Source: a virus
Length of the DNA: 29,938 bases
Virus record (IMG/VR): IMGVR_UViG_3300046820_001024
Coordinates: 1-29,938 of that record
Reading direction: 5' to 3' (one strand)
Position numbers and translations under genes: made by a program. Position 1 is the stretch's first letter. Every line of letters begins with the position of its first letter. This document shows positions 1 through 26,740 of the stretch, one piece after another. The notes below the pieces were generated by a model. It had not been told where the DNA came from, searched no databases, and saw nothing but the letters and a program-made list of their open reading frames with translations.

Positions 1-3000
1 TGAAGGGACTACGCCAAGGTGTAGTTGATTCAACTGAGTTTGCAGGTGACCTTGCAGAGCGTGGCGGTGAATCTGCACTCAACATGGTGCTTGCTTACAA
101 GCAATCAGAAGACGAAAAGAAACTCGGTATGCCGGGTAAGTCTGCTTGGGACATTCTTGCTGAAGGTGCCCTCGGCGCTGTTATGCAGGGTGACACTCGT
201 GTAGGACGAGCGGTATACGGCGGATTAAACCGTCTTACTAGCCCACAGATGATTCAGCAATCCATTGATCGTACAGCACCAGGTGCAATGCCCGGTGCTG
301 GTGCTACGCCAATGTCTCCTGCCGTGGATACTGGCTCTGCTATGCGTCCCGGTATGCGTCGATTCAACCTTGGTGGTCGTATTGAGAGTGGTGTAGATGA
401 AGATGGCAGCCCGATTATCAAGGGCGCACGTTACGCTATCTATGACCCAGAAGCACGTAAGGCACAAGTCTATACTGACAACGACTTTGCTCTAGAAGGT
501 GCACGTACACGCAAAGCAGCACAGAGCCTTCAAGGCACACAGAATATCTTCAAGCGTCAGCCTGTCATTCAATACGATGACACAGTAGTTGGTGGTCAGC
601 GTCAGATTCTAGGCATCACTCGAGATGCTGGTGTCCTTGTGCGTGACTACACAAAAGATGGCAAGTCTGCTATCTCCGCTGTTCCTCTTAGCGAAATCCG
701 CAACGCTAAGATTAGCAAGCGTATTAATGAGGTTATTGAGAATCAGGGTGTGCGACCGAACTCACGTCCTGCACCATTTATGCCAGAGGCATTTACCAAC
801 TTTAACCCCGTAGCATTCCCTGACACAGTGTCCCTGACAACGGATTCAGAGCCGATTCCTGCAAGAGTTGTAGAACGAATTGGAGGTAAAACGGATGCTT
901 CGTATATTGTTGCGTTGCCTGATGGCACACACTTTCGCGCTCATGAATCACAGATTAATGTAGATAAGTTCACGGGTGGTGAACACATTATTCGTGGAGC
1001 AATGAAGGACACTGACTTCCCACGGTCATTGGCTGACCTTGCTCCAAAGCGTGGTGGCTTGGACGGTCTCGTGCGTATCGGCGAAGGGTCGGATGCACCA
1101 TTCGTCGAACTGACTCCTACCCAACGTAAAGACTATCAGGCTATTGCTACTAAGTATCAAGCAGATATTGACGCTATCAAACGAGAGCCAGACAAGACCC
1201 GCCGTTCACAGATGTTGGACATTGTTCAAGGCAAGATTGCAAACGAGTATCTTGCTACAAATCCAATAGCACCTCCGACCGGAACTTGGAAAGAAGGTGA
1301 CGTAGTTGATGTTAACCTTTCACAGACGAAATTTGCCGGTAAGCCACAAACTGCTATTGTTACTGATGTCAACGATTATGGTTATGCTGTACGACTGGTG
1401 GATCATCCCAACGTTGGCACATTTACAGTGCAAGATGCAAACGTTATGGGTGAAGGTGTACCTGATGTATCAACTGCTGGTACTAACAAGGGAGTTAAAT
1501 CTCTAGCCGCCGGTCGTATTTCGACTGAGCGTTCTACGGCTACTGGACGTGATGGTGTACCTGCGGTGACCCGTGGCTATGCATCCACTGGTATGGCAGC
1601 TACTGACGTTGCTACAGTCAGTGATAAGGCAAAGCATGTTGACTATGTAGAGCTGCCTGAAGATGTCCAACAGTCCATTCAGAAGCGTTTTAAGAAGGCT
1701 GTAGATGACGGTGAGATTACCGCTGGTAATAGTATTGAATTCATAGAAACAACCAAAGACGGCCAAGTGCATGGGCAGATTCATGTTCACGCACTAGACA
1801 ACATGACATTCCAAGTTGTTGCTACCAACTTCCCAGAAGGTGGCGGTGCAATTAAGGATCAATACGTCTCGTCCTATAACGTACGCTACAACCCTGAGAC
1901 TGATATGTGGGATGTCTACTCCGTAGACCCTGAGACCGCTCGACGTATGAGCGAATCCGACGAAGCCGCATATATGGCTATCAGTCATCTTAAAAATGTT
2001 GCACCAGTAGATGCAAACCTTGATGTGTGGAATGCTAAAGGTGTTACTAAACAAACACAACGTAACATATTAAACACATTTTTAGATGCGGTAAACGTCA
2101 AGTTTCCTATTAACGAAAAATGGAAAACTGCTAGTGACTTTGACTTACTGTTAGATAACAATAAACACCGCCTTCAAAATGGCGAGTATATAACACCATT
2201 TTCCGTTGACTCTTTTAGTCCACGTCATTACTATAAAGATGTCTGGACTAACGAATCCTTGGACATGAGTGACCCCGCTCAATATGCTAGAGCCTCAGAT
2301 GCTGCTAGAGATATCTATGATGCTTTAAACGGTAGTGCATATCGCAAACAGGATATTGAAGATTTAATTCGCAATAGACGAGAAGAATCATTAGGACGCC
2401 TTGAAGACCAACTAAATAATCATGTTGCTACCAATAACTGGACAGAGGTTGAGCACCAATTATTTATGATGATGGCATCTAAATATGCCTTAAAAACAGA
2501 AAAAGATGCCAATCAAAATATCGTTATAAAACTTGTCGATATAAGTAAGAATAACGAAGTCTTACCTGTTAGTTATTCACAGGTAGATTACAATGCTTTC
2601 GTTGATGCATTACGTGCCGGTGAAATACCAAAAAAGGCCTTTCTTACCTCCTTAGAGTCCGCACAACGCAATAACGTTTCTAATAGATCCGTGCCAGTCA
2701 ATGGATGGAAGAAGTATCCGCAAAGCAGTAGTCCTACTAATGCAGCTGAACTATCACGAGATGTTGCTGACACCGTTTGGTGTATAGCTAGTACTGATAT
2801 GGCTCGTCATTATATGGAGCAAGCTGATTTTTATGTTTATTTTGAAGATTCTAGGCCGCTTGTAGCATATTGCGGTAACCAACATTCAATACCAGAACCA
2901 CCGCGTGGCACACGAGATAACAGTCAAGCAGTTAATGCATACGAGCAACAATTGGCTGTTCAGCATATGAAAGATAATGGCATTGCACCTCATTACCTTG

Positions 3001-6000
3001 ATGATGTAAATGCTAATAAATCCGCCAACAACATTGCGCAAGGCATTGGCACTGCTGAAGATGTTGATAATGTTAATAAACTCAAGAAAAGCGCAAGGTT
3101 ATATAGCAATCGAGATAACAACGCTGAAGTTATTTTGCATAAATTAAAAAGCCCAATTACCTTTGGTTATGATTGGACTTCAGTCAGATTTGCAAACACC
3201 TACAATAGATATGGTGGCAAGAAAACACAACTAGAACTATTAACAGATTTACCTGATTTTAGGAAAAATTATGAACTATTAGTTGCCGGTCCAACTAATC
3301 AAATGTCATTTACGATTAATGATGTTGACAGCCTCTATGTTCAAGGTGACCAAGGAATAGCAGCACTTAAGGAAATATATAACTCTCATATCAAAGGCAA
3401 AAACATCAAGCATGAAATTACCATTCAGATTGAGGGCACTGCACATTACGACCGTTACGGTTCAACCATAGCTCAAAATATAAGCGGCGATGATTGGGAT
3501 GAAGCGGATATTGAACGTATCTGGAGGAACGATGTAAAAGGTGCAATCAAAGCATCTGATTTCGATAACGACTTTTCATGGGCGTATTTTTCTGCTGATA
3601 GAGCACCATTAATTCATATTGACGGTGCTGATTCGCAGACGATTAAAATGAATAGAGCATCCACTTATGCTCTTGCCAACTCTATTCGTAATGCCACTAT
3701 AGAAGTTCAACCATCAATTGATCCATCTAAAAATGGAGTAAAGGTTGACGTGCATGTTGTTAGTAGACTCGACTCCGACATAGTTAATATCAAAGCCTTA
3801 GAACAAACAGATACAGACTATGAGGTTAGTTCGTATAACGGCACATTAAATGTTTCCAATATGGGAATCCGCACTTTTAACTTTGTGCACGGAGATATCA
3901 CATTAACAGACAGTGTTTTAGATAGCACATACATTAATGACACACGCCGGTCATCTGGTGTACTAAACATTGTTAACACAAAGGCACGTCCACAGGAAAT
4001 CTATCGTGTTCGATTACAAAATCCATATACTGCGTTAAACTATTTCAGTCAAAATGACTCCTCTCCACTGACAATTTACAACGTCGATGCAAAATTGCAT
4101 CAACTTTACAACACTGCAATAACCCAGTATTTCTACAGTGATTATGAACTCGATGTTGATACAAACATCAAGAGATTGTTTTTGTCACGCAACCGTCACA
4201 AAGTTAATATCAATAGCGGTTCAAATGTAGAAGTTATTGATTTCTCCGTTCCAGACGGAGACTATGAAGTTAACTCACCTAACAATAATTCATATATAAC
4301 CATTCAAAATGACAAAACCGACTGGTTGACAGCAGAAGGTAAGTTGGTTGTTAACTTTACTGGTAAAGATAATGCCGTAATGCTTAAAGGTACTAGTGGT
4401 AACCAGTACCAGTCAGTCAAAATAAATAGCCCACAGCAAACTACATTGGTGCAATCATTCACTAATGGCAGAAACTCCATTTGGAATAACATAACGTCAA
4501 ACCAATTTTTTGATAGGTTTTTCATTAATGGTGACTATCAGATAGTAGATGAATATACTCAAAGAACATTCAGTGAGGCTATTAAAGATTTAGTCAAGTT
4601 TAAACATGCCTCCTTGTCAGTTAATGAATATCTTACTATCAAAGCAATTCGTCAAGCCATAATTGCAAATTTCCCTGGTATCACAAGGAAAGCAAACAAA
4701 GTTGTAAACACTTCGCTTGATGAGTGTAATACAAACCTCATAGAACATGACTTATCCAAAATAAGTATTGGTGATTTTAATAGTGCTGAAATTGAGGCAA
4801 TTTTGACAACAGAATTGCATCAAGGCACAATTATGAATATGAAGTCGGTTGCACGAGCAATTTTAGTTAACCCAGATAACCAATACTCGTTGCAACCGTT
4901 AAATCATCCTGCATATATAAACATGGAATTGGCGCAACGTGCAGCAATTGACAGTTCGTTGGCGGAACAAAATCAACACACAAATGTCAAACCACCATCC
5001 TCAGATATTTTTCAGCAAGAACCTGATGTATATACTTTTGACGGAGCTGCGCCAACTGATGTACAAATGCTACCTCCTGATGGTGGCGATGAAGCGGCTT
5101 ATCAAGAAATAGATGATACTGGTGCTACATCAAGTAAACCTATTAAGAAAGTAAGTGGTGGATATAAGCTTCAAGGTTCGTTCCGTATGTCTGTCCCAAC
5201 TTCCCAGTTGCGTCGATATCGTGAGGAAGTAAACAAGCTTGCTATCCAGCATGGTGTTGACTCGGAAGCATACCGAAAGGGTATGAAGAAACTCGAAAAG
5301 GAATACCGTGAGCTTATCAGTCAGGCTAGTGCACAGGTGTTGGCAATCATCAACAAGATTGCTACCGAACAGCGACCTAACGTAACTGGCTATCAGCAAA
5401 AGGATACGACTGCGGCACGTATTGGTTATGCAATCAAGTCGGTAGACCGCAACTTCAACAACCTGCCTAGACCTTCTGTGGATACTCCGGATAATCGTCT
5501 TGGAACATACAAGATGATGTTCAATGCACTCGGCGAAGATTATTCAGTCGATGCATTCCGTGTAAGTAATCGTGCTCAACTCAAGACTGTTTTACAGAAG
5601 CAATACAAGTACGATGCGACCAACGCTGATCGTATTTCAGAAGTAGTTGACCGATTTGCTCGAGCATGGGCGTTCGACAAGATGCAGTCTATGGGATTCC
5701 GCCCAACTGAAATTGTTGAGATTACAGGTAAGCTTGCTGAAAACATTCTTGAGGCAGGTGCTTACAACACACCGTCATCAGATATGCTGTTCCAGCACTT
5801 CCCTGGTAAGACACCTAAGGAAACGAAACTTGTCGCACAGTATATGCGTGAGTTCTACGAAGACAGGTTTGCTGCATTCGGTGTCCTCGATGACGCATAC
5901 GACTTTACTAAGAAGTTCCGTGGAGCAATCTTCCGTACTAACAAATCTAAAGATGATGCTGTTCTCAATGTCATCGTAGGTTTTGCTTCCCGTGATGAGA

Positions 6001-9000
6001 CTACAGGCATTCACGAAATAGCACACGCTCTATTCCGTGGCATGGGTTACCCATTCCAAAAAGCAATTGCAGAAGCAATGGGCGTCAACTCAATGACACT
6101 CAAAGCAATGGCTAAGGATAATCGCTTCCCTATCTGGGTAGAAGAGAAATGGGCCGCCGCATTTGAAGGTTCACTTCGTGCAGGTGTAGCACCACAAGCC
6201 AGAGATGCAACTGACCCTACACGTCCACGCCAGCAAGACCCAACATTAGCAAAGCTGTGGATGGAACTTGGTGACTTCCTTACAGGTGCACGTAATGCAA
6301 CAATCAAAAAGCAAATTGCAAGCGGTGAGATACCTGAGTGGGGTAAAGATGAAAAAGGAACCCGATGGATTGCTAGATTTAAGGCAACAGACAAACTTTA
6401 TACAGGTAATGAACTTGAACTTGAGAATGGTCAGTTCGTCACAGTAAAAGCAACGCAATCAGCAGCCGGTGAACCCGTACAAGTAGTGGATGTTGATAGT
6501 GGAAAAGTATCTACAGTAGCAGTTGATGAAATTAAGCGTTATTCCGGTCGTGTTCCTTCCGGTTTTAATGATGCAACACTTGACACCTTGTCTAACTGGC
6601 TACGTAGTTATTACGGCAACACAGAGCGTAACATCCGTACAACGCTACCTGACATGGTTGCTGATTATGTTGGTGGTGAGGTAGACCTTGGACAACTCAG
6701 GGCTGAATCAACTAAACTCCAGAAGGTAGCATTCCAAGAGGCAATGGATGAGCCTCGCTCACCACTGCTTAGCTCACTGTCTAAGATGAGTAGCGTACAG
6801 ACTGGAATTAAGTCTCTGCTTGCAAGCAATCGTTTAGAGATTGGCAACAAGGGCACAGTTAAGAATGCATACGACAGATACGGAAAACCATCTAACTCAT
6901 TCCGTTTACTACGTGATGTCTACGGATTTGATGGGAATACCGCAGCTGCCTACTACGCTCAAACTGAGACACCTGAGTTTAAGAAGTGGTCTGAAAACCT
7001 ACCACTCCTTGAAGCAGTAAACAGCATTCAGGTTTCGCCTGACATCGACATGAATAAGATGTCACCAGAAGAGCGGAGTAACTATCGTCGCTATGAGACT
7101 GGACACGAACTTGCTAACCTTGCATCGGAAATCCTACGTGATGGAGCCGATGACAATGACGTTGATAAGTTTGTTGATTTGGCAGATCAGTTTTACCGTA
7201 ATGACGGACGTAGCCTGAAAGAAATCCGCAAGGCTGTTGAGCAAATTGTTAATGCTAATGAAGATGAAAACGTACAGCAACTCATGTCGTTTGAAACATC
7301 TTTGCGACGAGAGCTGGATACATCCCCAGACTTTGAACAAGCACGTGAGGTTTCGGTTTCATCCGATGTCTATAGGAACGCTGCACATACACCTAGAACA
7401 GGTAAGGGATTCGTCACTGTCTCCTTCCCTGCTATGGAATCATCGAACCTCATCCGTACAAAGAACGGTGTGGTTCTTACCTCTGGTATTACCTCATTCG
7501 ATGGTAACCGCCAAGGTGGTGAGTACATCAAGTTTAAAAACCCACAAGTTGTAAACCTTGAAGGGCAAGGTATTGACCAGCAGAAGCTTGACCGCATCAT
7601 AGCAAACGCCACTAAAGCAAAGCGTGATGGTGTTGTACTGCTCAACTTACGTCACAGTAATACAGTCAACTCTGCATTACATAACGTAGCAGTGCCAATC
7701 ACACGCTATCCAACCAAGTCTATTGTTGCAGTACCAGGTGTTGACCTTGGTACATACTTCAGTGGTGGCGGAACCCTCGAGGCAAGCGTATACGAATCTG
7801 TATTCCCTAAGATTGCAGTTGAGTACAACGCTGAGATTGCATCTGTCTATCGTGCTAACCACGGTGACCATGTACAGGTAAAGGACGTACAAGAGGTTGA
7901 CCCAACTAGCCTAAAGGATGTTCAGTGGTTCCACGCATCACCAGTATGCAAGAACTTCTCTGATGCTAATCCGAATGCTATAGAGACTATCCTTGATAAG
8001 AAGACTGGTAAGGCAGTTGTTGATGCTATTGATCATAGCCGACCACCAATCGTTACCATTGAAAACGTAGCCAAGTATCGTGAGAGTGAAAGCTTTACGG
8101 CTATCTTGGATGCACTCCGCCGGAATGGTTACGAGTTTGATTACGGTGTCTACAAGACATCCAAGTATGGCGGTGGTACAAGCCGACAACGATTGATTGT
8201 TCGTGCTGTACGTGGCTTTGCACTTCCTCCAATCATCAAGACTGATGCATCTCAGCGTACTTGGTATGAGTCAATCAAGGACATCATTGACACGTTGCCA
8301 ATCAGCGAGCTCGCACCAAATCAGTTGCGTAAATTGGAAGCATCTAAAATTGACGTACGGGCAATGAAAACACCTGTTCTCTTTACTCAGAACAGTTACC
8401 ATGCGGTTGGTATTACAGCCGATAAGGTATTCCCATCCTTCACAACATCCGGCGGAACGTATCGCATCCTGATGCCGGGTGGAACTGTACGTGCTATTAC
8501 AGGCGTTGCGTTTCGCCGGATGATGGGTCTACCAGATGCATATCTTCTTCCAGAATCCGAGCCACTTTCACGTAAGATTCTGGCGAACGGTGTACCGGCT
8601 GAGTTGTCGCAAACTATCATGGCTCCTCTTGCTGATGCATATGCACGAAATAACATGAGGCGTTTAGTCCAAGAAGAAATGCGCCGCATGGATACTGGAG
8701 AGCAAGCAGCATATCAAGAAGTAGATGATGAATTACGCAAAACCGTTTACATCATGCGTGGTGTATCGGGTAGTGGAAAAAGCACACTTGCTAATAAACT
8801 TGTTGGTAAAACTGGTCGCATATTTTCAACGGACAATTATTTTGTCAACGCTGAAACAGGACAATATAAGTTTGACCCAACAAAGATAAGTGAGAATCAT
8901 TCCAAAAATCTAAATGCATTTGTCACGCAACTGCAAAACTCTGAGCGGACACAAACACCACTTATTGTTGACAACACTAATATGCAGCAATGGGAGTATG

Positions 9001-12000
9001 CTCCTTATGTTGAAGCAGCTCGTAAATATGGATGGGATGTAGAGTTTGCTGAAATCGACCCACGAAAATACACGGATGCGGACATCAAGCAACTAGCAAA
9101 ACGCAACAAGCATGGTGTATCGGAAAATGTAATTCGCCAAATGATTTCTCGTTATGAGCCACGGGATACCGGAGGTGATGTTGCTTATCAAGAAGATGGT
9201 AAGAATCGCCGTGTATCTAATGCGGCAATGCTTTCCTATGTTGCTCAAACGGCAAACATTTCTGAATTTGACGTACAGAAGTTGATTGATAATGGTTCTT
9301 TACCAAAGCCAATTGACGGCTATTACGACCCAATTACATTCCGTGCATTACAAGCAAGAGTTTCTGTGGCTATTGCAACTGGTAAAGACGGTAAGTTAAA
9401 TTGGGATAACGCCGTTAAGTTTGTTCCAATTATTCGGGACTTGAACAAAAAGCAGATTCCATTTGACCCAAGTGGTGCGCTGGAAACATCGGAGTTAGTG
9501 CATTGGCTAAAAACCCGTAAGGGACATCTATTCCCAATGCCTAACATCAGAGGGCAACAAATCACTGAAGACCGAATGGTCAAGACATTCTTGAATACAA
9601 GAGTTTTCCCTGATGATTACATCGTAGGTGGTGATCGTTCGGGTCTCATGTACGACCAGCAGATACTTACCGCACTTGAGATTTACACAAATATGCGTCA
9701 CAACGGTTACGCTGTGGAATTCATCAAAGGAGTTTTGAATCCAGAAGCTGATCAACGAACTTTACAAGGTGGTGTTGGCATCAAAGAATTTTATGACTTG
9801 TTAAATGAGGGTCGTGAGAAACCTATAACACAAGACATGATTATGAACTGGCGGAATAAAGGTAACTACATTCCTGCAATGCTGAATAACCCAGCACATG
9901 GAATTGGTAAAATTTTTACGCCAGATCATCTGTTGATTGCCGAAAAAATTGCTGACTTGATAGATACCGGAGTAAGTCCATCTGTTACAAAGGGTCAGTT
10001 AAAAGCCAGATTACTTGAAGACCCAGAGTATGTTGCAGCGTTTACAAGAATTGTTACCCATCCTTGGTATCAATCCACTTCGACAACGACCATTGAATCG
10101 ATTAAGGAAGCAAAACCAATCATGCGTATGGCTGACGTCATTGCTGCCATTGCTAAGGAAGTTGCTCCCACTAAATTCAATGTTCAAACCTATCAGGCTC
10201 TTGAACGTTCTGGACATATTCCAAGAGGTCTTAAACCAAGCGATGGTACAACGCGTCGGCAATACAATGACAATTACGTAAAACTTGCAGTCATGGCACT
10301 TGATCCTAAGTACAGAGGTAAAAAAACTGAGGCTAGGAAACAAGACCCTGAGTATGCAAAGCTGTGGAACAAGATTGATGCAGCTGTCAAAGACTCTGAA
10401 TCAGGTTCTGAAGAGGCATCGTATCAGGAGATAGACGACCTGTTCCCATCACAGCGTCGTACAGTTGAAACCTACGATATGCCGGGAGCACCAATGTACG
10501 TTGAGCGTATTCGTCCTAAGCAACTCCCCCCACGCAATGCGTGGTTCTGGGGTGCGATTGACTTGTACAACGACATCACCCGTCTCCCACTCTCTGGTGA
10601 CCTTGCATTCCAAAACCTTCAGGGTGGAATCATTGGTTTGAGCAATCCACTTGTTGGTCTCAAGGCATTCAAGGCTGGTCTACAAGGCTTTGCTCCAAAC
10701 ATGCAGATTGAGGTCAATGGTCAGCTGTATGGTAGCCGTAAGTTTGGACGTGAAACCTACCACGCAGCCGGTGAAGCCATGCGCCGTAACCCAATGTACA
10801 AACTGGCTAAGGAGGCTGGTCTTCCTCTGGCTATGTTTGAGATTGATGCTCGGCTACAAGAAGCACGGGAGATTGAACTACACAACCTGAAGATGACTAA
10901 TCCAAACGCAACGATGAAGGATGTCAAGATTGGCTTGATGGACATCGATGAACTAGGTACGGTCGATGAGTGGTACAGCAAGAACCGTATTACTCGGCAC
11001 TTGCCAATGCAGGGTCAGTTCGAGCGGTTCAATAGCCTAGTACATGACACACTACTTCTTACTCAGTTTGATAACTGGGTAAAGGTATTGATGTCGAAGG
11101 GATATCAACCGAACACTGCAATGTTCAACAAGGCACTCAAGGATGCAGCCCGTGTCTTAGCTGTATCCGTTGGTGACATCAAGTACTCAACCAATCCGGA
11201 AACTGACGCAGCTGCATCACGCATTGCTAAAATCTTCTTTACTGCTCCACGGTGGTTAATGAGCCGTGCACTGATTGACCCATTCATCAATCAGATGGTG
11301 AGCAACAGCAGTATCTTTGCAAGACTACGTGAAATCATGGGTGAAGACAACCCTGCATTCAACTTGTACAACGGCGATAAGGAAGTTGCTAAACTTGGAC
11401 AGAGTATGTGGCTCCGCATTGCCGGCCTTGAAGCAATGCTTGCAATCATGGCGTGGGTGTTCTCTAACTGGTATCCAGATACAGAAGTCAACACCGACAT
11501 TCAGCCCGGACGCATTCGTATTGGTGACTTCCAGATTGACCCAATGGCAGGTTTGATTGACCATTACAAACTGGCTGGACGCCTTGCAAAGGCTGTGTTT
11601 AGTGTTGACCCACGAGACGCATCTAGGGCTGAGAAAGAAGGCATCCCGCAGTGGATGATGGCTGTCAAGGATATCAGTAAGGAACTAAGTTACAAGGCAT
11701 CACCTGGTATCACATTCCTTCAGGCTATCAGTGGAACAAACGACCTCAAAGCACAGGCGGATAACTTCTTTACTGCTCCTTGGGAAGCCAAAGCAATCAA
11801 CGTAGTTGGCGAGCCATTGTTTGAACGCAGTGCGTCAGCCAAGATTTTCTACGACATGATTAAGCCGAGATTGCGTGAACTCTTCGGTGATGCTGTAGCG
11901 GATGACATCCCAATCAGTAACATGATGATGGATCGTATTCCGATGGCTCTCCCCGGATTCATTGATTCGTTTGCTTCAGCCAAGGAATATAACCGTGACC

Positions 12001-12221
12001 CATGGGTGTATGCACTGGCTGATACGATTCCGAACTTCTTCGGATTCAAGGTTGACGTGATGCCAACGGAAGCCCGTAAAGACAGAGCCAAGAACAAGAA
12101 CATGTCAACGGCAGATGATTCGCCAACCCTCCTACGGTTGCTTGCCGAAGGTAGAGCAAGTGAAGCATTCACTGGTACAGTGAAGTCATCACCTCCGTCA
12201 GGAAATGTAAACCCTTGGTAA
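1..12221 (+). CDS. giant polyvalent/polyprotein-like phage protein (5' partial)
   Basis: The frame is already open at the left edge (first full codon at base 3), so the Met at 84 is internal and the start lies outside the window. Residues below count from that Met. The order is: N-terminal region with SH3-like stretches (about 410-460); a WCIAS motif at 899 followed by a predicted beta-solenoid (about 1290-1500); HEIAH metallopeptidase motif at 1977-1981; possible ADP-ribosyltransferase-like region (about 2428-2525); C5 cytosine methyltransferase (about 2553-2860); P-loop kinase with GVSGSGKST at 2893-2901; four MerR-like HTH repeats (about 3058-3407); and a conserved C-terminal region with a membrane-like segment near 3778-3796. 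A YQE-type motif recurs between modules. This matches the 'polyvalent protein' theme of phages and conjugative elements, thought to be delivered with the genome or to act early. Its position just before the endolysin suggests a late or virion-associated gene. Domain assignments are by eye from motifs. Confidence 0.85.
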   Translation, partial: KGLRQGVVDSTEFAGDLAERGGESALNMVLAYKQSEDEKKLGMPGKSAWDILAEGALGAVMQGDTRVGRAVYGGLNRLTSPQMIQQSIDRTAPGAMPGAGATPMSPAVDTGSAMRPGMRRFNLGGRIESGVDEDGSPIIKGARYAIYDPEARKAQVYTDNDFALEGARTRKAAQSLQGTQNIFKRQPVIQYDDTVVGGQRQILGITRDAGVLVRDYTKDGKSAISAVPLSEIRNAKISKRINEVIENQGVRPNSRPAPFMPEAFTNFNPVAFPDTVSLTTDSEPIPARVVERIGGKTDASYIVALPDGTHFRAHESQINVDKFTGGEHIIRGAMKDTDFPRSLADLAPKRGGLDGLVRIGEGSDAPFVELTPTQRKDYQAIATKYQADIDAIKREPDKTRRSQMLDIVQGKIANEYLATNPIAPPTGTWKEGDVVDVNLSQTKFAGKPQTAIVTDVNDYGYAVRLVDHPNVGTFTVQDANVMGEGVPDVSTAGTNKGVKSLAAGRISTERSTATGRDGVPAVTRGYASTGMAATDVATVSDKAKHVDYVELPEDVQQSIQKRFKKAVDDGEITAGNSIEFIETTKDGQVHGQIHVHALDNMTFQVVATNFPEGGGAIKDQYVSSYNVRYNPETDMWDVYSVDPETARRMSESDEAAYMAISHLKNVAPVDANLDVWNAKGVTKQTQRNILNTFLDAVNVKFPINEKWKTASDFDLLLDNNKHRLQNGEYITPFSVDSFSPRHYYKDVWTNESLDMSDPAQYARASDAARDIYDALNGSAYRKQDIEDLIRNRREESLGRLEDQLNNHVATNNWTEVEHQLFMMMASKYALKTEKDANQNIVIKLVDISKNNEVLPVSYSQVDYNAFVDALRAGEIPKKAFLTSLESAQRNNVSNRSVPVNGWKKYPQSSSPTNAAELSRDVADTVWCIASTDMARHYMEQADFYVYFEDSRPLVAYCGNQHSIPEPPRGTRDNSQAVNAYEQQLAVQHMKDNGIAPHYLDDVNANKSANNIAQGIGTAEDVDNVNKLKKSARLYSNRDNNAEVILHKLKSPITFGYDWTSVRFANTYNRYGGKKTQLELLTDLPDFRKNYELLVAGPTNQMSFTINDVDSLYVQGDQGIAALKEIYNSHIKGKNIKHEITIQIEGTAHYDRYGSTIAQNISGDDWDEADIERIWRNDVKGAIKASDFDNDFSWAYFSADRAPLIHIDGADSQTIKMNRASTYALANSIRNATIEVQPSIDPSKNGVKVDVHVVSRLDSDIVNIKALEQTDTDYEVSSYNGTLNVSNMGIRTFNFVHGDITLTDSVLDSTYINDTRRSSGVLNIVNTKARPQEIYRVRLQNPYTALNYFSQNDSSPLTIYNVDAKLHQLYNTAITQYFYSDYELDVDTNIKRLFLSRNRHKVNINSGSNVEVIDFSVPDGDYEVNSPNNNSYITIQNDKTDWLTAEGKLVVNFTGKDNAVMLKGTSGNQYQSVKINSPQQTTLVQSFTNGRNSIWNNITSNQFFDRFFINGDYQIVDEYTQRTFSEAIKDLVKFKHASLSVNEYLTIKAIRQAIIANFPGITRKANKVVNTSLDECNTNLIEHDLSKISIGDFNSAEIEAILTTELHQGTIMNMKSVARAILVNPDNQYSLQPLNHPAYINMELAQRAAIDSSLAEQNQHTNVKPPSSDIFQQEPDVYTFDGAAPTDVQMLPPDGGDEAAYQEIDDTGATSSKPIKKVSGGYKLQGSFRMSVPTSQLRRYREEVNKLAIQHGVDSEAYRKGMKKLEKEYRELISQASAQVLAIINKIATEQRPNVTGYQQKDTTAARIGYAIKSVDRNFNNLPRPSVDTPDNRLGTYKMMFNALGEDYSVDAFRVSNRAQLKTVLQKQYKYDATNADRISEVVDRFARAWAFDKMQSMGFRPTEIVEITGKLAENILEAGAYNTPSSDMLFQHFPGKTPKETKLVAQYMREFYEDRFAAFGVLDDAYDFTKKFRGAIFRTNKSKDDAVLNVIVGFASRDETTGIHEIAHALFRGMGYPFQKAIAEAMGVNSMTLKAMAKDNRFPIWVEEKWAAAFEGSLRAGVAPQARDATDPTRPRQQDPTLAKLWMELGDFLTGARNATIKKQIASGEIPEWGKDEKGTRWIARFKATDKLYTGNELELENGQFVTVKATQSAAGEPVQVVDVDSGKVSTVAVDEIKRYSGRVPSGFNDATLDTLSNWLRSYYGNTERNIRTTLPDMVADYVGGEVDLGQLRAESTKLQKVAFQEAMDEPRSPLLSSLSKMSSVQTGIKSLLASNRLEIGNKGTVKNAYDRYGKPSNSFRLLRDVYGFDGNTAAAYYAQTETPEFKKWSENLPLLEAVNSIQVSPDIDMNKMSPEERSNYRRYETGHELANLASEILRDGADDNDVDKFVDLADQFYRNDGRSLKEIRKAVEQIVNANEDENVQQLMSFETSLRRELDTSPDFEQAREVSVSSDVYRNAAHTPRTGKGFVTVSFPAMESSNLIRTKNGVVLTSGITSFDGNRQGGEYIKFKNPQVVNLEGQGIDQQKLDRIIANATKAKRDGVVLLNLRHSNTVNSALHNVAVPITRYPTKSIVAVPGVDLGTYFSGGGTLEASVYESVFPKIAVEYNAEIASVYRANHGDHVQVKDVQEVDPTSLKDVQWFHASPVCKNFSDANPNAIETILDKKTGKAVVDAIDHSRPPIVTIENVAKYRESESFTAILDALRRNGYEFDYGVYKTSKYGGGTSRQRLIVRAVRGFALPPIIKTDASQRTWYESIKDIIDTLPISELAPNQLRKLEASKIDVRAMKTPVLFTQNSYHAVGITADKVFPSFTTSGGTYRILMPGGTVRAITGVAFRRMMGLPDAYLLPESEPLSRKILANGVPAELSQTIMAPLADAYARNNMRRLVQEEMRRMDTGEQAAYQEVDDELRKTVYIMRGVSGSGKSTLANKLVGKTGRIFSTDNYFVNAETGQYKFDPTKISENHSKNLNAFVTQLQNSERTQTPLIVDNTNMQQWEYAPYVEAARKYGWDVEFAEIDPRKYTDADIKQLAKRNKHGVSENVIRQMISRYEPRDTGGDVAYQEDGKNRRVSNAAMLSYVAQTANISEFDVQKLIDNGSLPKPIDGYYDPITFRALQARVSVAIATGKDGKLNWDNAVKFVPIIRDLNKKQIPFDPSGALETSELVHWLKTRKGHLFPMPNIRGQQITEDRMVKTFLNTRVFPDDYIVGGDRSGLMYDQQILTALEIYTNMRHNGYAVEFIKGVLNPEADQRTLQGGVGIKEFYDLLNEGREKPITQDMIMNWRNKGNYIPAMLNNPAHGIGKIFTPDHLLIAEKIADLIDTGVSPSVTKGQLKARLLEDPEYVAAFTRIVTHPWYQSTSTTTIESIKEAKPIMRMADVIAAIAKEVAPTKFNVQTYQALERSGHIPRGLKPSDGTTRRQYNDNYVKLAVMALDPKYRGKKTEARKQDPEYAKLWNKIDAAVKDSESGSEEASYQEIDDLFPSQRRTVETYDMPGAPMYVERIRPKQLPPRNAWFWGAIDLYNDITRLPLSGDLAFQNLQGGIIGLSNPLVGLKAFKAGLQGFAPNMQIEVNGQLYGSRKFGRETYHAAGEAMRRNPMYKLAKEAGLPLAMFEIDARLQEAREIELHNLKMTNPNATMKDVKIGLMDIDELGTVDEWYSKNRITRHLPMQGQFERFNSLVHDTLLLTQFDNWVKVLMSKGYQPNTAMFNKALKDAARVLAVSVGDIKYSTNPETDAAASRIAKIFFTAPRWLMSRALIDPFINQMVSNSSIFARLREIMGEDNPAFNLYNGDKEVAKLGQSMWLRIAGLEAMLAIMAWVFSNWYPDTEVNTDIQPGRIRIGDFQIDPMAGLIDHYKLAGRLAKAVFSVDPRDASRAEKEGIPQWMMAVKDISKELSYKASPGITFLQAISGTNDLKAQADNFFTAPWEAKAINVVGEPLFERSASAKIFYDMIKPRLRELFGDAVADDIPISNMMMDRIPMALPGFIDSFASAKEYNRDPWVYALADTIPNFFGFKVDVMPTEARKDRAKNKNMSTADDSPTLLRLLAEGRASEAFTGTVKSSPPSGNVNPW
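1959..1976 (+). repeat. YQE-type separator motif, divergent copy 1
   Basis: Encodes DEAAYM with Tyr at residue 630 of the giant frame. It shares DEAAY with the other separators but lacks the following QE. The base composition of the gene changes here: the DNA to its right is markedly AT-richer. It may be the left junction of an inserted module. Confidence 0.5.
1974..5117 (+). other. AT-rich module inside the giant gene (WCxA motif plus beta-solenoid-like region)
   Basis: This stretch of about 1040 codons differs in composition from its flanks. By hand count, line 2041-2100 is 19/60 G+C and 4261-4320 is 17/60, against 36/60 at 1021-1080 and 31/60 at 11581-11640. It carries a motif of the form WCIAS..A..Y...DFYVYF (residues 899-920). 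The same WC.A...A...GDFYVYY theme is remembered from proteins of unknown function in phages and candidate-phyla bacteria. After it come many short alternating beta-like segments rich in Asn, Asp, Val and Ile, typical of a right-handed beta-helix or leucine-rich-like solenoid. It is bounded by two EAAY motifs. Its function is unknown, and acquisition by transfer is inferred from composition only. Confidence 0.55.
5085..5117 (+). repeat. YQE separator motif, copy 2
   Basis: Encodes GDEAAYQEIDD with Tyr at residue 1673. It lies at the right edge of the AT-rich module and before the metallopeptidase-containing segment. Confidence 0.7.
5880..6300 (+). other. zincin metallopeptidase domain of the giant protein
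   Basis: TGIHEIAHALFR places an HExxH zinc motif at residues 1977-1981. Downstream, a stretch reading EEKWAAAFEGSLRAG offers the third glutamate ligand. The arrangement HEIxH...E-x-WA-x-xFE...G-x-AP is typical of metallopeptidase domains of phage polyvalent proteins. A plausible role is self-processing of the polyprotein or cleavage of a host factor; neither is shown by the sequence. Confidence 0.65.
7363..7700 (+). other. possible ADP-ribosyltransferase-like domain of the giant protein
   Basis: Residues about 2428-2525 read VYRNA..., then EYIKFKNPQVVNLEG, then AKRDGVVLLNLRHS. The sequence 'xKxKNPxVVxLxG ... A...DGVVxLN' recalls the C-terminal half of the ART-type domains common in polyvalent proteins. 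The N-terminal catalytic histidine/arginine pattern is not clear, so this is tentative. A structural comparison would decide it. Confidence 0.3.
7737..8672 (+). other. C5 cytosine DNA methyltransferase domain of the giant protein
   Basis: Conserved motifs appear in canonical order: motif I DLGTYFSGGGTLEAS (Phe 2559), motif IV SPVCKNFS with the catalytic Cys at 2622, motif VI ENV at 2660-2662, motif VIII SRQRLIVRA (about 2700-2708), motif IX around RRMMGLPDAY, and motif X NGVPAELSQTI. The residue before the catalytic Cys is Val rather than the usual Pro. The stretch between motifs VIII and IX, where target recognition normally sits, is present. It probably methylates phage DNA against restriction or acts on host DNA. 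Confidence 0.85.
8697..8729 (+). repeat. YQE separator motif, copy 3
   Basis: Encodes GEQAAYQEVDD with Tyr at residue 2877, just after the methyltransferase domain and just before the kinase domain. Confidence 0.7.
8733..9167 (+). other. P-loop kinase domain of the giant protein
   Basis: The domain begins LRKTVYIMRGVSGSGKST, a Walker A motif (residues 2893-2901) placed directly after the first beta strand. It is followed by STDNYF and IVDNTNMQQWEY, typical of the AAA_33/polynucleotide-kinase-like NTPase family (NEDD4BP2/PNK type). The roughly 150-residue domain exactly fills the space between two YQE motifs, so it looks like a discrete unit. The likely activity is phosphoryl transfer to a nucleotide or nucleic-acid end; the substrate is unknown. 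Confidence 0.8.
9177..9200 (+). repeat. YQE separator motif, copy 4
   Basis: Encodes GDVAYQED with Tyr at residue 3035, between the kinase and the MerR-like repeats. Confidence 0.65.
9255..10304 (+). other. four tandem MerR-like helix-turn-helix repeats in the giant protein
   Basis: Four stretches share the pattern helix - hhxxhhxxGxhP - loop - Y/F-x-x-hhxxh, typical of MerR-type winged HTH units. They start near residues 3058 (QKLIDNGSLPKP...YYDP), 3160 (VKTFLNTRVFPDDY...MYDQQ), 3248 (IMNWRNKGNYIPAM...IFTPDH) and 3365 (YQALERSGHIPRG...YNDNY). This suggests a DNA-binding or protein-bridging array. Recognised by eye only. Confidence 0.5.
10407..10439 (+). repeat. YQE separator motif, copy 5
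   Basis: Encodes GSEEASYQEIDD with Tyr at residue 3447, between the HTH repeats and the conserved C-terminal region. Confidence 0.7.
10440..12221 (+). other. conserved C-terminal region of the giant protein
   Basis: About 590 residues of largely helical sequence. It contains the stretch FFTAPRWLMSRALIDPF (about 3716-3732), like the 'fF.pR...SR' signature of large polyvalent-protein-associated C-terminal domains, and one membrane-compatible helix (AGLEAMLAIMAWVFSNW, about 3780-3796). G+C content returns to that of the N-terminal region. A role in virion packaging or membrane passage is possible but not shown. Confidence 0.5.
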
Positions 12222-22914: not shown

Positions 22915-23697
22915 CTATATGGAATCCAAGTCGATGAACTTTTTACGCTCTATCGCCGCCTTAGCTTTGCGCGATTGTTGGCCGTGCACAGCAAAGAGAA
23001 TCACAGCGTTACAGCGCCGCAGTTTCTCACCGTCAAAACACAAACGGCACTTTGTGCAATCTTCCGCCGCGCCAACTTGTTCCCGGCAGGGTATGCCCAA
23101 CATGCCATTCTCAAGGCGGTACGGCTTGACTTTGTCCCCGTGCACATCTACCACCATTGACAGCGCGTAGCCCTTAGCATATGCCGCATCAAGGTCCTTA
23201 ATTGACTCACAAGAAGCAAGCACAGAGACCCCGCCCCATGATGTACGCGCAACTTCGCGCCATCCGTGCGTATATGTCCAGACCGCCTGACCCCCGCGCG
23301 CCGTGTACCTATCTGCCGCCAAGCTTACAATCGTGGCAGATGAATCGGTAGGACTATCGCCAACAACGTGCAACCGTAGCGGCCGATTACCCTTTAGGGT
23401 ATCAATGCCATCCGCTTCCGCATGTGCAATGTCAAGCAAGGAGACCGACTCACCTAATGACTTAGATGCAAGCTCTAAGGTACGTGACGTCATAGCAACC
23501 AGACCCGACTCACCATAGCACCCTGCATGTCTGAAAGGACAAGGCGTACCAAGCAAATCACACGTGTACTGTGATACTTGAGTGGTGGCAACTTTACCGA
23601 CTTTGCTATTACCACTAATAGCCGTGACCTTGACCTGTGACGCAACGAGCGCCGCGCGAGCTGAATCGGTGCTCGAGCCGTTTTCTAAGATAACCAT
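22915..23697 (-). CDS. gp88-family protein
   Basis: A 260-residue protein. The hallmark is GNSKVGKVATTQVS followed by CDLLGTPCPFRHAGCYGESG (Cys46, 53, 60), as in the 'gene product 88' family of phages and plasmids. A second cysteine group lies near the C-terminus (CREQ..., CTKCRLCFDG). The middle holds LRLHVVGDSPTDSSAT and AVWTYTHGW. The family is cysteine-rich and of unknown activity; an iron-sulfur or radical-SAM-like fold has been a natural guess but is not established here. The ATG lies only 6 bases after a TATAAT box, so the message is probably leaderless. Codon use is GC-richer than in neighbouring genes. Confidence 0.75.
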   Translation of the reverse strand: MVILENGSSTDSARAALVASQVKVTAISGNSKVGKVATTQVSQYTCDLLGTPCPFRHAGCYGESGLVAMTSRTLELASKSLGESVSLLDIAHAEADGIDTLKGNRPLRLHVVGDSPTDSSATIVSLAADRYTARGGQAVWTYTHGWREVARTSWGGVSVLASCESIKDLDAAYAKGYALSMVVDVHGDKVKPYRLENGMLGIPCREQVGAAEDCTKCRLCFDGEKLRRCNAVILFAVHGQQSRKAKAAIERKKFIDLDSI

Positions 23698-23703
23698 GCA
23701 GGT

Positions 23704-23712
23704 ATTATACCA
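23704..23712 (-). promoter_or_regulatory. extended -10 promoter for the gp88-family gene (leaderless)
   Basis: On the minus strand TGGTATAAT is a full extended -10 (TGn plus TATAAT) with six bases (ACCTGC) before the ATG at 23697, so transcription would start at or next to the start codon. No -35 is evident, as is common with extended -10 promoters. Confidence 0.6.
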
Positions 23713-23930
23713 TCAAACCGGTATAAACCAGACGCATAATGCGCCAGCAGCTGGCAAAAGCGCAGAATCGGTAGATTATGCAAACTGTGCAATATTGTAC
23801 AAAAAACGCCTGATCGTTGTCTTAACTATAACAAATCACCGCCTATTATCATTATTATATACCTGCGGTACGGCATTAGGCATCGGCAAATAATGCAACA
23901 AAAACCCCGTATTGTGCAGCTGGATTTTGG

Positions 23931-23957
23931 TAAAAAAATTTCGGCGCTGCGCGCCGT
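23931..23957 (-). terminator. GC hairpin with T-tract (GCGCTGCGCGCCG copy 2)
   Basis: CGGCGC (23942-23947) and GCGCCG (23951-23956) form a 6-bp stem with loop TGC. On the minus strand it is followed by AAATTTTTTT, an intrinsic terminator. It would end a leftward transcript from the hairpin-rich region before the gp88 promoter. Confidence 0.55.
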
Positions 23958-24020
23958 ATCTTGTCTGTTCTTGCCATGCATCTATCCCTATCGTGACCTA
24001 TTTTTGTAACCCTTCGTCTT

Positions 24021-24047
24021 CTACGCCTTCGCTAAAGCTCGGCATAG
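24021..24047. repeat. covarying hairpin element 1
   Basis: CTACGCC and GGCATAG arms around the conserved loop TTCGCTAAAGCTC. The single A-C mismatch becomes a G-U pair if the minus strand is transcribed. Confidence 0.65.
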
Positions 24048-24098
24048 GGGTGTGAGGTACGATCTCTCACCCTATCTATGCAGGTATATTTTTGTGGA

Positions 24099-24123
24099 TA
24101 CACCATCGCTAAAGCTCGGTGTA
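24099..24123. repeat. covarying hairpin element 2
   Basis: TACACC/GGTGTA stem, perfect 6 bp, around loop ATCGCTAAAGCTC. Confidence 0.7.
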
Positions 24124-24271
24124 GACCCGTTTATTACTGTTTTCTTTCCCCCTTTTTGTGTGTGGCGTACCTGCGTGGTGTGAGTGTAGTGGGGGGGGAA
24201 TATAAGGAGAGAGGCACACATTCTCACCGTAACTATGCAAGTATCGTTACGCTATGTGAACGGGAGGGTGT

Positions 24272-24314
24272 CTCGATGCGAGGAGCTGCGCAACTACTCC
24301 GCCACCTTGTGGCG
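24272..24314. other. cluster of small hairpins, candidate structured RNA
   Basis: CTCG-ATG-CGAG at 24272-24282, an alternative GGAG/CTCC pairing (24282-24285 with 24297-24300), and CGCCAC-CTT-GTGGCG at 24300-24314, followed at once by hairpin elements 3 and 4. The concentration of pairings suggests an RNA structure; strand and extent are unknown. Confidence 0.35.
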
Positions 24315-24323
24315 AGGGGAAGG

Positions 24324-24349
24324 TACGTCTTCGCATAAAGCTCGACGTA
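24324..24349. repeat. covarying hairpin element 3
   Basis: TACGTC/GACGTA stem, perfect 6 bp, around loop TTCGCATAAAGCTC, which has one extra base relative to most copies. Confidence 0.7.
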
Positions 24350-24353
24350 GAAG

Positions 24354-24378
24354 TACACCTTCGCTAAAGCTTGGTGTA
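24354..24378. repeat. covarying hairpin element 4
   Basis: TACACC/GGTGTA stem, perfect 6 bp, around loop TTCGCTAAAGCTT. It begins five bases after element 3 ends, making a tandem pair. Confidence 0.7.
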
Positions 24379-24536
24379 GATGAGAGAGATTGAAAAGGAA
24401 TAGAGTAGGTTTCCCTAGTTGGCTGTATGTATCAGTGCGGATGTTATACAGTGTGACATCAGTACAGTTACTTATCGCACTGAGTAATCCCTTAAAAAAT
24501 ATGTCCGCTTCGCGTTCAAAATTTTTTGCAGGATTA

Positions 24537-24573
24537 TAAAAAAAAAGGAACCCTGCCAGAGGTAGCAGGGTCC
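24537..24573 (-). terminator. intrinsic terminator of the three-gene lipoprotein operon
   Basis: On the minus strand ACCCTGC and GCAGGGT (24571-24565 and 24556-24550) form a stem with an 8-base loop, followed by CC and a run of ten T. It lies 10 bases after the stop of the gene ending at 24583. Confidence 0.9.
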
Positions 24574-24582
24574 CCGTGTAGT

Positions 24583-24828
24583 TTATTCGAACAATGCGAG
24601 GATTTCAGGGTCAACAGTATCCTGATTCTCGATAACACATTGTGCCGCGTCACGCACTTGTGAACGCCAAAACGAGATAGGCGAAGGCTCAGAAGTGTAG
24701 AAGTCCCAAATATCCACATCTGCTAACGACTCGAGACCGATACCCAAACGCCGCGAGATGTAACGGTCCACGTGGTCATAGAACTGTTCGAACGTGAACG
24801 AAACAACATCAGTACTCTTATATGCCAT
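24583..24828 (-). CDS. small hypothetical acidic protein
   Basis: An 81-residue protein, not recognised. It is acidic and aromatic (FTFEQFYDHVDRYISRRLG, DVDIWDFYTSEP), probably helical, and ends DPEILALFE. It starts 4 bases after the lipoprotein stop with AGGGG close to the ATG, and it is the last gene before a strong terminator. Its length and acidity are similar to small phage inhibitor proteins, but no function can be given. Confidence 0.65.
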   Translation of the reverse strand: MAYKSTDVVSFTFEQFYDHVDRYISRRLGIGLESLADVDIWDFYTSEPSPISFWRSQVRDAAQCVIENQDTVDPEILALFE

Positions 24829-24832
24829 ACCC

Positions 24833-24955
24833 CTAACCTTTACCCTTTACAGAATAATCGGATGCATTATCCACCCTGCCATCCGTGCAACCGCACCCTG
24901 CCATAAGGCAGAGTGCAATCACAACAACGATAATGAACTTTACGAGTGGATGCAT
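24833..24955 (-). CDS. 40-residue lipoprotein
   Basis: A short frame starting in TAATG, overlapping the previous stop by 1 base, with GGAG 5 bases before the ATG. The product begins MHPLVKF, has a hydrophobic core IIVVVIALCLMAGC ending in a lipobox (LMAG|C) with candidate lipidated Cys21, then a short polar tail (GCTDGRVDNASDYSVKGKG). This is a type II signal peptide with a mature peptide of about 20 residues. Phage lipoproteins of this size serve as superinfection-exclusion factors or outer-membrane spanin subunits. A spanin would need a Gram-negative host and a partner; neither is shown. It is flanked by two other short genes in one operon. Confidence 0.7.
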   Translation of the reverse strand: MHPLVKFIIVVVIALCLMAGCGCTDGRVDNASDYSVKGKG

Positions 24956-25311
24956 TACCACTCCACCACCATGACATAAGGAGAAATCTCGAGTGAGTCA
25001 TTCTCAGAACGTAGCAAACGCAGAGCTTCACGCCAAGAAGCAAACAACGCATCGCGAATATCCACGCCGCCGAACTCATCCGAGAACTCGCGCCATTCTA
25101 CAGAATCGAGAATGTCAAGGATTGAATCAAACTGTGTAACTACCATGTCCGATTCGGTTACAGTGATTGTACCCTCGTCACAGATGTAGTTATAAAGGAA
25201 CGACGTCAAGCCGTGCCCCGACAAGTCTGGCACGATGTCCGAGATAAGCTCGGCAACGTTATCAATGGTGAAATAGCTAATGCTATTCGGTGGCGATGCT
25301 AACTTTATCAT
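24955..25311 (-). CDS. hypothetical protein, first gene of the lipoprotein operon
   Basis: A 118-residue protein starting at the ATG 25311, which has GAGGAG about 10 bases upstream; an earlier GTG lies before that site. It is acidic and mixed alpha/beta (FTIDNVAELISDIVPDL, SDEFGGVDIRDALFASW, ending YVMVVEW). It is not recognised. Its leader, from a TATAAT at 25356-25361, contains a CCACC/GGTGG hairpin. Co-transcription with a lipoprotein suggests a lysogeny or exclusion cassette, which is inference. Confidence 0.65.
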   Translation of the reverse strand: MIKLASPPNSISYFTIDNVAELISDIVPDLSGHGLTSFLYNYICDEGTITVTESDMVVTQFDSILDILDSVEWREFSDEFGGVDIRDALFASWREALRLLRSENDSLEISPYVMVVEW

Positions 25312-25355
25312 TCTAAGTAAACTCCTCGAATCCACCGCCGTAGTGGTGGTGGTTT

Positions 25356-25361
25356 ATTATA
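25356..25361 (-). promoter_or_regulatory. -10 promoter box for the lipoprotein operon
   Basis: TATAAT on the minus strand, about 45 bases before the ATG at 25311. The -35 region is weak. A TACTTGC box lies 10 bases upstream, the same box found near other promoters here. Confidence 0.5.
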
Positions 25362-25420
25362 TCGAGATATGCAAGTATTGGACATGAACTATTCTACGAT
25401 TCGCTTGCATTATTCTACGC

Positions 25421-25448
25421 AAAAAATTTTCCGGCGCATTCGCGCCGG
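25421..25448 (-). terminator. GC hairpin with T-tract in the divergent region
   Basis: CCGGCGC (25431-25437) and GCGCCGG (25442-25448) form a perfect 7-bp stem with loop ATTC; on the minus strand it is followed by AAAATTTTTT. GCAAAAAATTTT is shared, inverted, with 24520-24531, and resembles 23931. It would end a leftward transcript covering elements 5 and 6. Confidence 0.6.
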
Positions 25449-25543
25449 GAGTTCGATCTCGCTAAAGCGAGACCATTCATTGTTGTGTTCGTGACATATT
25501 GTTGTTATGTGTACGTTATCTGCACATTATAGGAACGTCCTTA

Positions 25544-25569
25544 TGCATCTTCGCATAAAGCTCGATGCA
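25544..25569. repeat. covarying hairpin element 5
   Basis: TGCATC/GATGCA stem, perfect 6 bp, around loop TTCGCATAAAGCTC. Confidence 0.7.
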
Positions 25570-25621
25570 GTTGTGGTGTGCGCGTCAGGCTGTGCCACCC
25601 TTCCTTCCCACCATCGGGGGG

Positions 25622-25646
25622 TGCGCCTTCGCTAAAGCTTGGCGCA
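25622..25646. repeat. covarying hairpin element 6
   Basis: TGCGCC/GGCGCA stem, perfect 6 bp, around loop TTCGCTAAAGCTT. Confidence 0.7.
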
Positions 25647-25842
25647 GTACGCCCTCCTATCCAGTCGGGCGTACGCTGTGTTTTTCCACACTATCTTCCT
25701 TCCTCCTTTAGTACTATGTGTACTTGCAGGGGGGTAGGACAATGTGTGCCGGGGTATATACTCCCTCTCCGCCCCCACCCCCTACAGAACATCCTATACC
25801 CAACCTCTTCTCCCGCCGTAGAACCTATCCCCATGCAGGTAA

Positions 25843-25862
25843 TGATATACTTGCGGGGAGGA
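25843..25862 (+). promoter_or_regulatory. extended -10 promoter and Shine-Dalgarno for the Tad2-like operon
   Basis: TGATATACT is an extended -10 (TGn plus TATACT at 25846-25851), overlapping the box TACTTGC. GGGGAGGAG follows at 25855-25862 as ribosome-binding site for the ATG at 25870. The leader would be only about 10-13 bases. Confidence 0.6.
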
Positions 25863-25869
25863 GATAAAT

Positions 25870-26073
25870 ATGACAGGACTTGAAGCGTTGGCTGCGTTGC
25901 GTGAGGGTAAACACGTTCGTCGTGCGGACTGGAAGCCTGGTGATTACATTAGAGCGTCACGCCAACTGAAGAAGATTTCATACGTGCGGGGAAACATCAT
26001 TTCTGTATTGATCGTTGCAGACCACTTCCTGAATGATGACTGGGAAGTCACTGATGCCAAGGATGGTGAGTAA
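25870..26073 (+). CDS. Tad2-like (DUF2829 family) protein, copy A
   Basis: A 67-residue protein of the DUF2829 type: MTGLEALAALREGKHVRRADW, then GDYI, a variable middle, and NDDWEV near the C-terminus. DUF2829 includes Tad2, a tetrameric phage protein that binds and sequesters the glycocyclic-ADP-ribose signal of Thoeris defence, and relatives that bind other cyclic nucleotides. The known pattern (helix with AL..L..GK.V.R..W, then DW at the end) is present, and the length is slightly short of the usual 70-90. The start has a strong Shine-Dalgarno site, and the stop overlaps the next ATG by 1 base (TAATG). Anti-defence function is inferred from family. Confidence 0.7.
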   Translation: MTGLEALAALREGKHVRRADWKPGDYIRASRQLKKISYVRGNIISVLIVADHFLNDDWEVTDAKDGE

Positions 26074-26470: not shown

Positions 26471-26740
26471 ATGACGTTTGGAGATGTACTCAAAGACTTG
26501 ATTAATGGGTTACCTGTCTACCGTGAAGGATGGAAAGACGGTCACTTTATTTACTACGAGAAGGACTGGAATATGTTTACTGAAGCACATCCCAGTCGTG
26601 ACTGGCATACGTTGTGTACATCAGCTCCTCTACGTGGAACTGACCTAGAAGCTGATGACTGGCAAGTAGATGAGTGGGATGGTGAAGAGGATAAGCCAGA
26701 CCATATTCGTGGTGTCACGAAAAAGGATGTAGTGGAATGA
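26471..26740 (+). CDS. Tad2-like protein, copy C
   Basis: An 89-residue protein with the framework VLKDLINGLPVYREGW, GHFIYYEKDW, and ADDWQVDEW. It matches the other copies in the basic/aromatic REGW start and the DW near the end, but has a longer acidic tail (DGEEDKPDH) and is divergent in the middle (HPSRDWHTLCTSAPLRG). GGAGGAG lies 6 bases before the ATG. Its divergence suggests a different ligand from copies A and D. Confidence 0.65.
   Translation: MTFGDVLKDLINGLPVYREGWKDGHFIYYEKDWNMFTEAHPSRDWHTLCTSAPLRGTDLEADDWQVDEWDGEEDKPDHIRGVTKKDVVE

Follow-up and report, generated by a model that had tools for sequence, protein, structure and literature searches.

The window analysed here, i.e. the whole stretch of 29,938 nucleotides, is an IMG/VR virus fragment from an uncultured phage. 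Placing both ends of a 54.6-kb relative (G009) on the window suggests a phage genome of about 59 kb. The same relative supplies the terminase, portal and major head protein, its terminase distantly resembling those of HTVC103P- and CRP-like phages. The left part of the window holds a 4072-aa reading frame in the virion region (positions 3-12221; counterpart of 4431 aa at 32855-46150 of G009), inside which C5-cytosine methylase and polynucleotide-kinase-like (AAA_33) domains were recognised with Pfam and PHROGs, and then an endolysin. Leftward genes, including those for a DnaB-type helicase, an O-like initiator and a Gam-like protein, extend from 13 to 23.7 kb, and small rightward genes, a dUTPase and ThyX follow from 25.87 kb. 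Two small proteins encoded at 25870-26073 and 26471-26740 gave Pfam Tad2-like (Thoeris anti-defence 2-like) matches above the cut-off.

Two hairpin-bearing noncoding stretches (23.70-24.58 and 25.34-25.87 kb) lie between the leftward and rightward operons, and the cumulative GC-skew minimum of the window coincides with this region. A conserved small ORF considered in the right noncoding stretch was dropped, as no frame was open across all relatives.

Six hairpins and their copies in related phages

Six dispersed hairpins confined to the two large noncoding regions had been proposed, and all six were located where predicted, on one strand, with no copies elsewhere in the window or in the records of its relatives. 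The hairpin pattern matched the window six times, compared to zero matches for a reversed control pattern. Listed on the minus strand, the left cluster begins with L1 (24021..24047, arms 24021-24027/24041-24047), whose minus form is CTATGCC-GA-GC-UUUA-GC-GAA-GGCGTAG with one U.G pair, and L2 (24099..24123, arms 24099-24104/24118-24123; TACACC/GGTGTA, internal loop GA/GAU). L3 (24324..24349, arms 24324-24329/24344-24349; TACGTC/GACGTA, 5-nt apical loop UUUAU) and L4 (24354..24378, arms 24354-24359/24373-24378; TACACC/GGTGTA) are separated by 4 nt and form a tandem pair. The right noncoding region, also on the minus strand, carries R1 (25544..25569, arms 25544-25549/25564-25569; TGCATC/GATGCA, 5-nt apical loop) and R2 (25622..25646, arms 25622-25627/25641-25646; TGCGCC/GGCGCA). 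The perfect palindrome TCTCGC-TAAA-GCGAGA at 25457..25472, previously noted as a seventh variant, is present, has no strand and contains the same GC-UUUA-GC tip.

Several other elements of the minus strand adjoin the clusters. A GC-rich hairpin at 25431..25448, followed by AAAATTTTTT, is a possible terminator of a leftward RNA; its stem covaries in the related record L158, but the T run is absent there. A second GC-rich hairpin, followed by AAATTTTTTT, lies downstream (leftward) of L1 at 23942..23956. Upstream of the left cluster, a canonical intrinsic terminator (24546..24575) closes the leftward gene at 24583-24828, and just past it a TATAAT box (24533..24538), kept in L083 and L121 and not in L158, is a candidate promoter of a left-cluster RNA. 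Upstream of the left cluster, at ~24420-24485 (minus strand), lies a further hairpin that is conserved, TCAGTGCG...CGCACTGA; in L158 it shows a single paired change.

The search for further copies that had been suggested, conducted by pattern, protein and model searches, yielded 29 complete copies, spread over seven viral records that are related (six each in the window, L083 and L158, five in L121, and two each in L053, L107 and L010); L193 opens with half a further copy. All 29 share one orientation relative to the flanking genes and occupy orthologous places within the divergent noncoding region only; G009 likewise had no copies outside it. The left cluster is missing in L053, L107, L010 and L193 because their contigs begin inside the region. 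The contigs of L193 and L010 begin, at their position 1, inside or just before a hairpin (R2 and R1, respectively), where assembly breaks at repeats are possible.

Stemless exact-pattern scans of IMG/VR were saturated by chance matches; when stem bases were included, real stems were found in the seven phages only, and the variant CTTCGCTAAAGCTTG gave no 6-bp stems beyond them. No match came from 84,980 bacterial and archaeal genomes scanned with a canonical-stem pattern, the hairpins were absent from more distant relatives reached via DUF7227 (L197, L198 and others), and a phage collection searched with the noncoding regions contained no cultured relative bearing the hairpin. The earlier remark that no known family has this loop was upheld by Rfam 15, which returned nothing at gathering and, for 23700-25870, nothing with E values as high as 5, and by a literature search for these hairpin sequences, which found nothing. 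The hairpin family is undescribed in the libraries searched.

Covariation, tip anatomy and strand

Variation between orthologous sites occurs largely as exchange of one pair for another. R1 appears as TGCATC/GATGCA, TACATC/GATGTA or TACACC/GGTGTA and covaries in six relatives; R2 as TGCGCC/GGCGCA or, in L121 and L158, TGCACC/GGTGCA; L2 as TACACC/GGTGTA or TACGCC/GGCGTA; and L3 as TACGTC/GACGTA or TACGCC/GGCGTA. The palindrome changes from CTCGC/GCGAG to CCTGC/GCAGG in L158 by two paired changes. TACATC is specific to R1 and TGCACC to R2, and since some paired changes are unique to one site, they are not accounted for by gene conversion between copies. The condition under which the idea of a selected fold was to fail, i.e. 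recent duplicates lacking independent stem changes, is contradicted by these paired differences, and covariation within and between phages supports that idea.

In 22 distinct rows, 99.4% of cells were paired, and the covariation score was 0.347, compared to 0.199 ± 0.020 in shuffles (0 of 500 reached it) and at most 0.160 for slid versions. Cells with a double change numbered 18, against 5.4 in shuffles, while the number of pairs with a double change (three) did not exceed that in shuffles (226/500). Paired changes were limited to transitions at pairs 2, 4 and 5, pairs 1, 3 and 6 being nearly constant. Counting by eye gave ~7 double changes in the six hairpins; the chance of as many matching changes would be below 1e-5, a rough estimate made without a tree model. 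RNAalifold applied to the full minus-strand regions recovered all six hairpins unprompted.

The same data bear on the proposal that the hairpins spread through the genome as a mobile or REP-like repeat family. Several similar copies are present, and relatives of the tip in Bacillota (see below) are dispersed in tens of copies per genome. However, the phage copies are fixed at orthologous places and missing from the rest of the genome, their changes are compensatory substitutions, not new insertions, and no transposase-like gene was seen among the scanned proteins; we consider this origin very unlikely.

The loop of 13-14 bases had been described as nearly constant. Its constancy stands, but it is not a plain loop, since two invariant G-C pairs lie within it; a 2x3 internal loop followed by the two G-C pairs and an apical loop describes the constant part better. 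In the minus form, the 29 copies consist of a 6-bp stem enclosing [RA]-GC-UUUA(U)-GC-[GAA], with internal-loop exceptions of TA/GAA in one copy and GAU in two. The corresponding plus-strand internal loop is NUC/UY.

Better pairing of the minus strand, hinted at in the original prediction, was confirmed by more cases and by in-context folding. Five of the six non-Watson-Crick cells are G.U on the minus strand and C.A on the plus strand, none is reversed, and the remaining cell has U.U in the minus form. The five G.U cells trace to about three independent events. Mean stability of isolated hairpins was -9.4 kcal/mol for the minus form versus -7.2 kcal/mol for the plus form, and mean pairing probability in context across the 29 copies was 0.69-0.72 versus 0.37-0.46. 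L1 and L2 were poorly predicted in some relatives, minus form included. The adjoining genes run leftward, which makes minus the sense strand. Collectively, pairing and gene direction make a leftward (minus-strand) RNA most likely to be the functional form.

Leftward of each cluster, the minus strand shows a GC hairpin, an A-rich spacer and a T run, with one T run missing in L158. These GC hairpins and T runs, together with the canonical terminator of the gene preceding the left cluster, favour leftward RNAs of roughly 400-600 nt that would start at putative promoters. Matches to sigma70-like promoters were not in excess in the region (five, versus 3.6 in shuffles), and candidate promoter motifs occurred on both of its strands.

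Two other motifs were observed in the window. TACYTGCR was over-represented (21 sites versus 4.0 ± 2.1 in shuffles) and clustered around the control region, often beside -10-like boxes and start codons; examples are 25834-25841 (-), 25848-25855 (+) and 23697-23704 (-), of which the first two form an inverted pair at 25834-25855. This is possibly a promoter or operator motif of the phage. A second promoter-like motif, ~CGTAGRATWATGCAA, was found near gene starts in the window, at 25413 (-), 21793 (-) and 23775 (+), and in relatives.

The hairpins could alternatively act in replication as DNA, cruciform or single-stranded, serving as repeated initiation or priming sites of an origin between the divergent operons and read by the O-like initiator, a primase or another DNA-binding protein. 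The position of the region at the cumulative GC-skew minimum, beside the operon that encodes the DnaB-type helicase and the O-like initiator, fits such a role, although divergent transcription by itself also gives a skew minimum. Repeated sites in one orientation are typical of origins, and single-stranded DNA also tolerates G.T pairs. Against origin DNA hairpins, the intermediates are G.U on one strand only, as RNA predicts, and the tip also recurs in leaders and dispersed repeats where nothing points to an origin. We judge an origin function to be a serious but improbable account.

The same tip on other stems

An exhaustive scan of IMG/VR returned 41 stretches with CTTCGCTAAAGCTCG. The exact 15-mer was never accompanied by a contiguous 6-bp stem when it lay within long reading frames, and in the wider hit set 6 of 84 coding matches were predicted to close a hairpin. 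Three noncoding phage groups beyond the relatives of the window carry the exact tip on strong stems. In T4-like contigs (L014 and six more) the stem is TGGAAC/GTTCCA and is flanked by a phrog_527 gene and by that for the late sigma factor; in S-CAM4 and S-CAM9 the matching intergenic region before gp55 is without the hairpin. In L039, L078, L086 and L105 a 10-bp stem with a small inner loop, AAGCTGGTGT/ACACCAGCTT, is found in the leader upstream of a small gene. In L103 and L212 the stem TCGCCCC(T)C/GGGGGCGA sits inside a larger structured region. As these groups were picked by exact sequence, identity of the tip is by design and the stems are the informative part.

tblastx revealed no similarity of the loci of the three groups to the window or G009, nor among the pairs of groups tested, and none of these groups matched Rfam at gathering. 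The sense strand of the neighbouring genes carries the minus form in two of the three groups (T4-like and L039/L078/L086/L105), whereas in L103 and L212 that strand carries the plus form. The constant part is not private to this phage, as its tip also caps other stems.

The L103 and L212 loci also drew attention in their own right. A long noncoding region (L103 ~2500-3500, L212 ~8150-8950) contains long-range covarying helices, CGACCTGATTACGTTTG/CAAACCTAATCAGGTCG against CGACCTAAACATATCC/GGATATGTTTAGGTCG, without an Rfam match, and is possibly a large structured RNA of 40-44-kb phages.

Scanning bacteria for a 17-mer gave 22 stretches, including several noncoding matches with stems, four of which belong to a dispersed Bacillota repeat, RTAAGNGCAACTA...GTTTTCTTTA (loci L219, L230, L231, L235 and L263-L292). 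The repeat is intergenic, with about 40-50 matches per genome, and is not in Rfam, its loci giving no match at gathering. The 19 main-type elements compared retain the internal loop NTC/TY together with its flanking G-C positions (with one GT for GC) and differ in the apical loop (TAAA, TTAC, TGAC, TCAA, AA or longer). This independent variation of the apical loop supports the reading of the tip as a 2-bp helix with an internal loop. As to why the tip is shared, descent, convergence and search selection cannot be fully separated.

Recurrence on unrelated phage stems, and in Bacillota repeats with a varying apical loop, is also what would be seen if the tip were a thermodynamically or mutationally favoured cap, a structural spacer or an end-protector of small RNAs with no specific ligand. 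Yet all 29 phage copies and the 19 main-type Bacillota elements have the same internal-loop bases, U, C / U on the plus strand, though a plain helix would be more stable, and stem pairs 1, 3 and 6 of the phage hairpins are nearly constant as well. A cap with no specific ligand seems to us decidedly unlikely. The hairpin is a recurrent structured module that probably acts as an RNA binding site, whether in untranslated leaders or within small RNAs.

Interpretation and comparison with known systems

The reading that we favour, and hold with middling confidence, is that the six hairpins are repeated RNA binding sites in leftward untranslated RNAs, with a free stem and a recognised tip. Copies of the module would sit in minus-strand untranslated RNAs of the replication-side control region, where the main need of the stem would be pairing, and recognition would fall on the tip together with its internal loop. 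The likeliest partner is an RNA-binding protein from phage or host, or else the transcription machinery; it would bind the repeated tips in nascent leaders or in small RNAs and may thereby alter transcription or RNA fate between the two divergent operons. From the sequences compared, we infer action as RNA, the minus strand as the functional one and protein binding alike.

A broader version of this idea is that the tip C-[NUC]-GC-loop-GC-[UY]-G (complement C-[RA]-GC-loop-GC-[GAN]-G) could be a general, so far undescribed bacterial RNA recognition module bound by a conserved cellular factor, which unrelated phages would independently have put on their own stems in leaders or small RNAs to recruit or titrate that factor; we offer this as a tentative and rather doubtful extension. 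Recurrence of the tip in dissimilar phages and in Bacillota intergenic repeats predicts that its carriers have either a binding partner or an RNA fold in common. A small, well-defined RNA-binding site would join the few known phage examples if the minus-strand reading is true.

Known hairpin types were compared with the phage hairpins. An intrinsic terminator has a T run directly after its stem; none of the six appeared on the list of terminator-like structures, and they are not intrinsic terminators. Promoter hairpins of the N4 virion RNA polymerase have a 5-7-bp stem and a 3-nt loop, the polymerase domain residing in a giant virion protein; the loop of the phage hairpins is unfit for this role, and Pfam and PHROGs recognised only C5-methylase and AAA_33 kinase-like domains in the 4072-aa frame. 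REP/BIME elements are likewise repeated imperfect hairpins with an internal mismatch, and GTAG adjoins many of the phage copies. Unlike REP/BIME, the phage hairpins are restricted to two regions at fixed orthologous positions instead of being dispersed through the genome, and GTAG is inconstant (GCAG and GTAA occur) and on the 3' side, so that neither distribution nor foot places them in that family.

A kink-turn consists of a 3-nt bulge followed by tandem G.A pairs. The minus form shares with it a purine-rich asymmetric internal loop and a possible sheared A.G beside a G-C pair, but has five unpaired bases (2x3 in 29 of 29 copies) and is not a kink-turn. Operators of the MS2 type, read by a coat protein dimer, have a single bulged A and an ANYA loop. 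They too combine a free-but-paired stem with two pairs between a 5' unpaired A and a 4-nt loop ending in A. The phage hairpins differ from them in the UUUA loop, the 2x3 internal loop, the presence of up to six repeats and the dsDNA nature of the phage, and fall outside this class; we know of no coat relative for them.

The lambda boxB element is a 5-nt GNRA-like loop on a 5-bp stem, to which an arginine-rich antitermination peptide binds. Like boxB/nut and HK022 put RNA, the phage hairpins are small, have constant tips or bulges on covarying stems and, on the favoured reading, would lie in untranslated leaders of the kind found in early operons, the tandem hairpins of HK022 put resembling the L3-L4 pair. 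They differ in having no GNRA-like pentaloop and in occurring as six copies over two regions, and their apical sequence GC-UUUA(U)-GC sets them apart from lambda boxB. The phage hairpins are of the loop-constant, stem-free kind represented by boxB and the MS2 operator, yet belong to none of those families, and what they would share with MS2 or boxB sites is the logic only.
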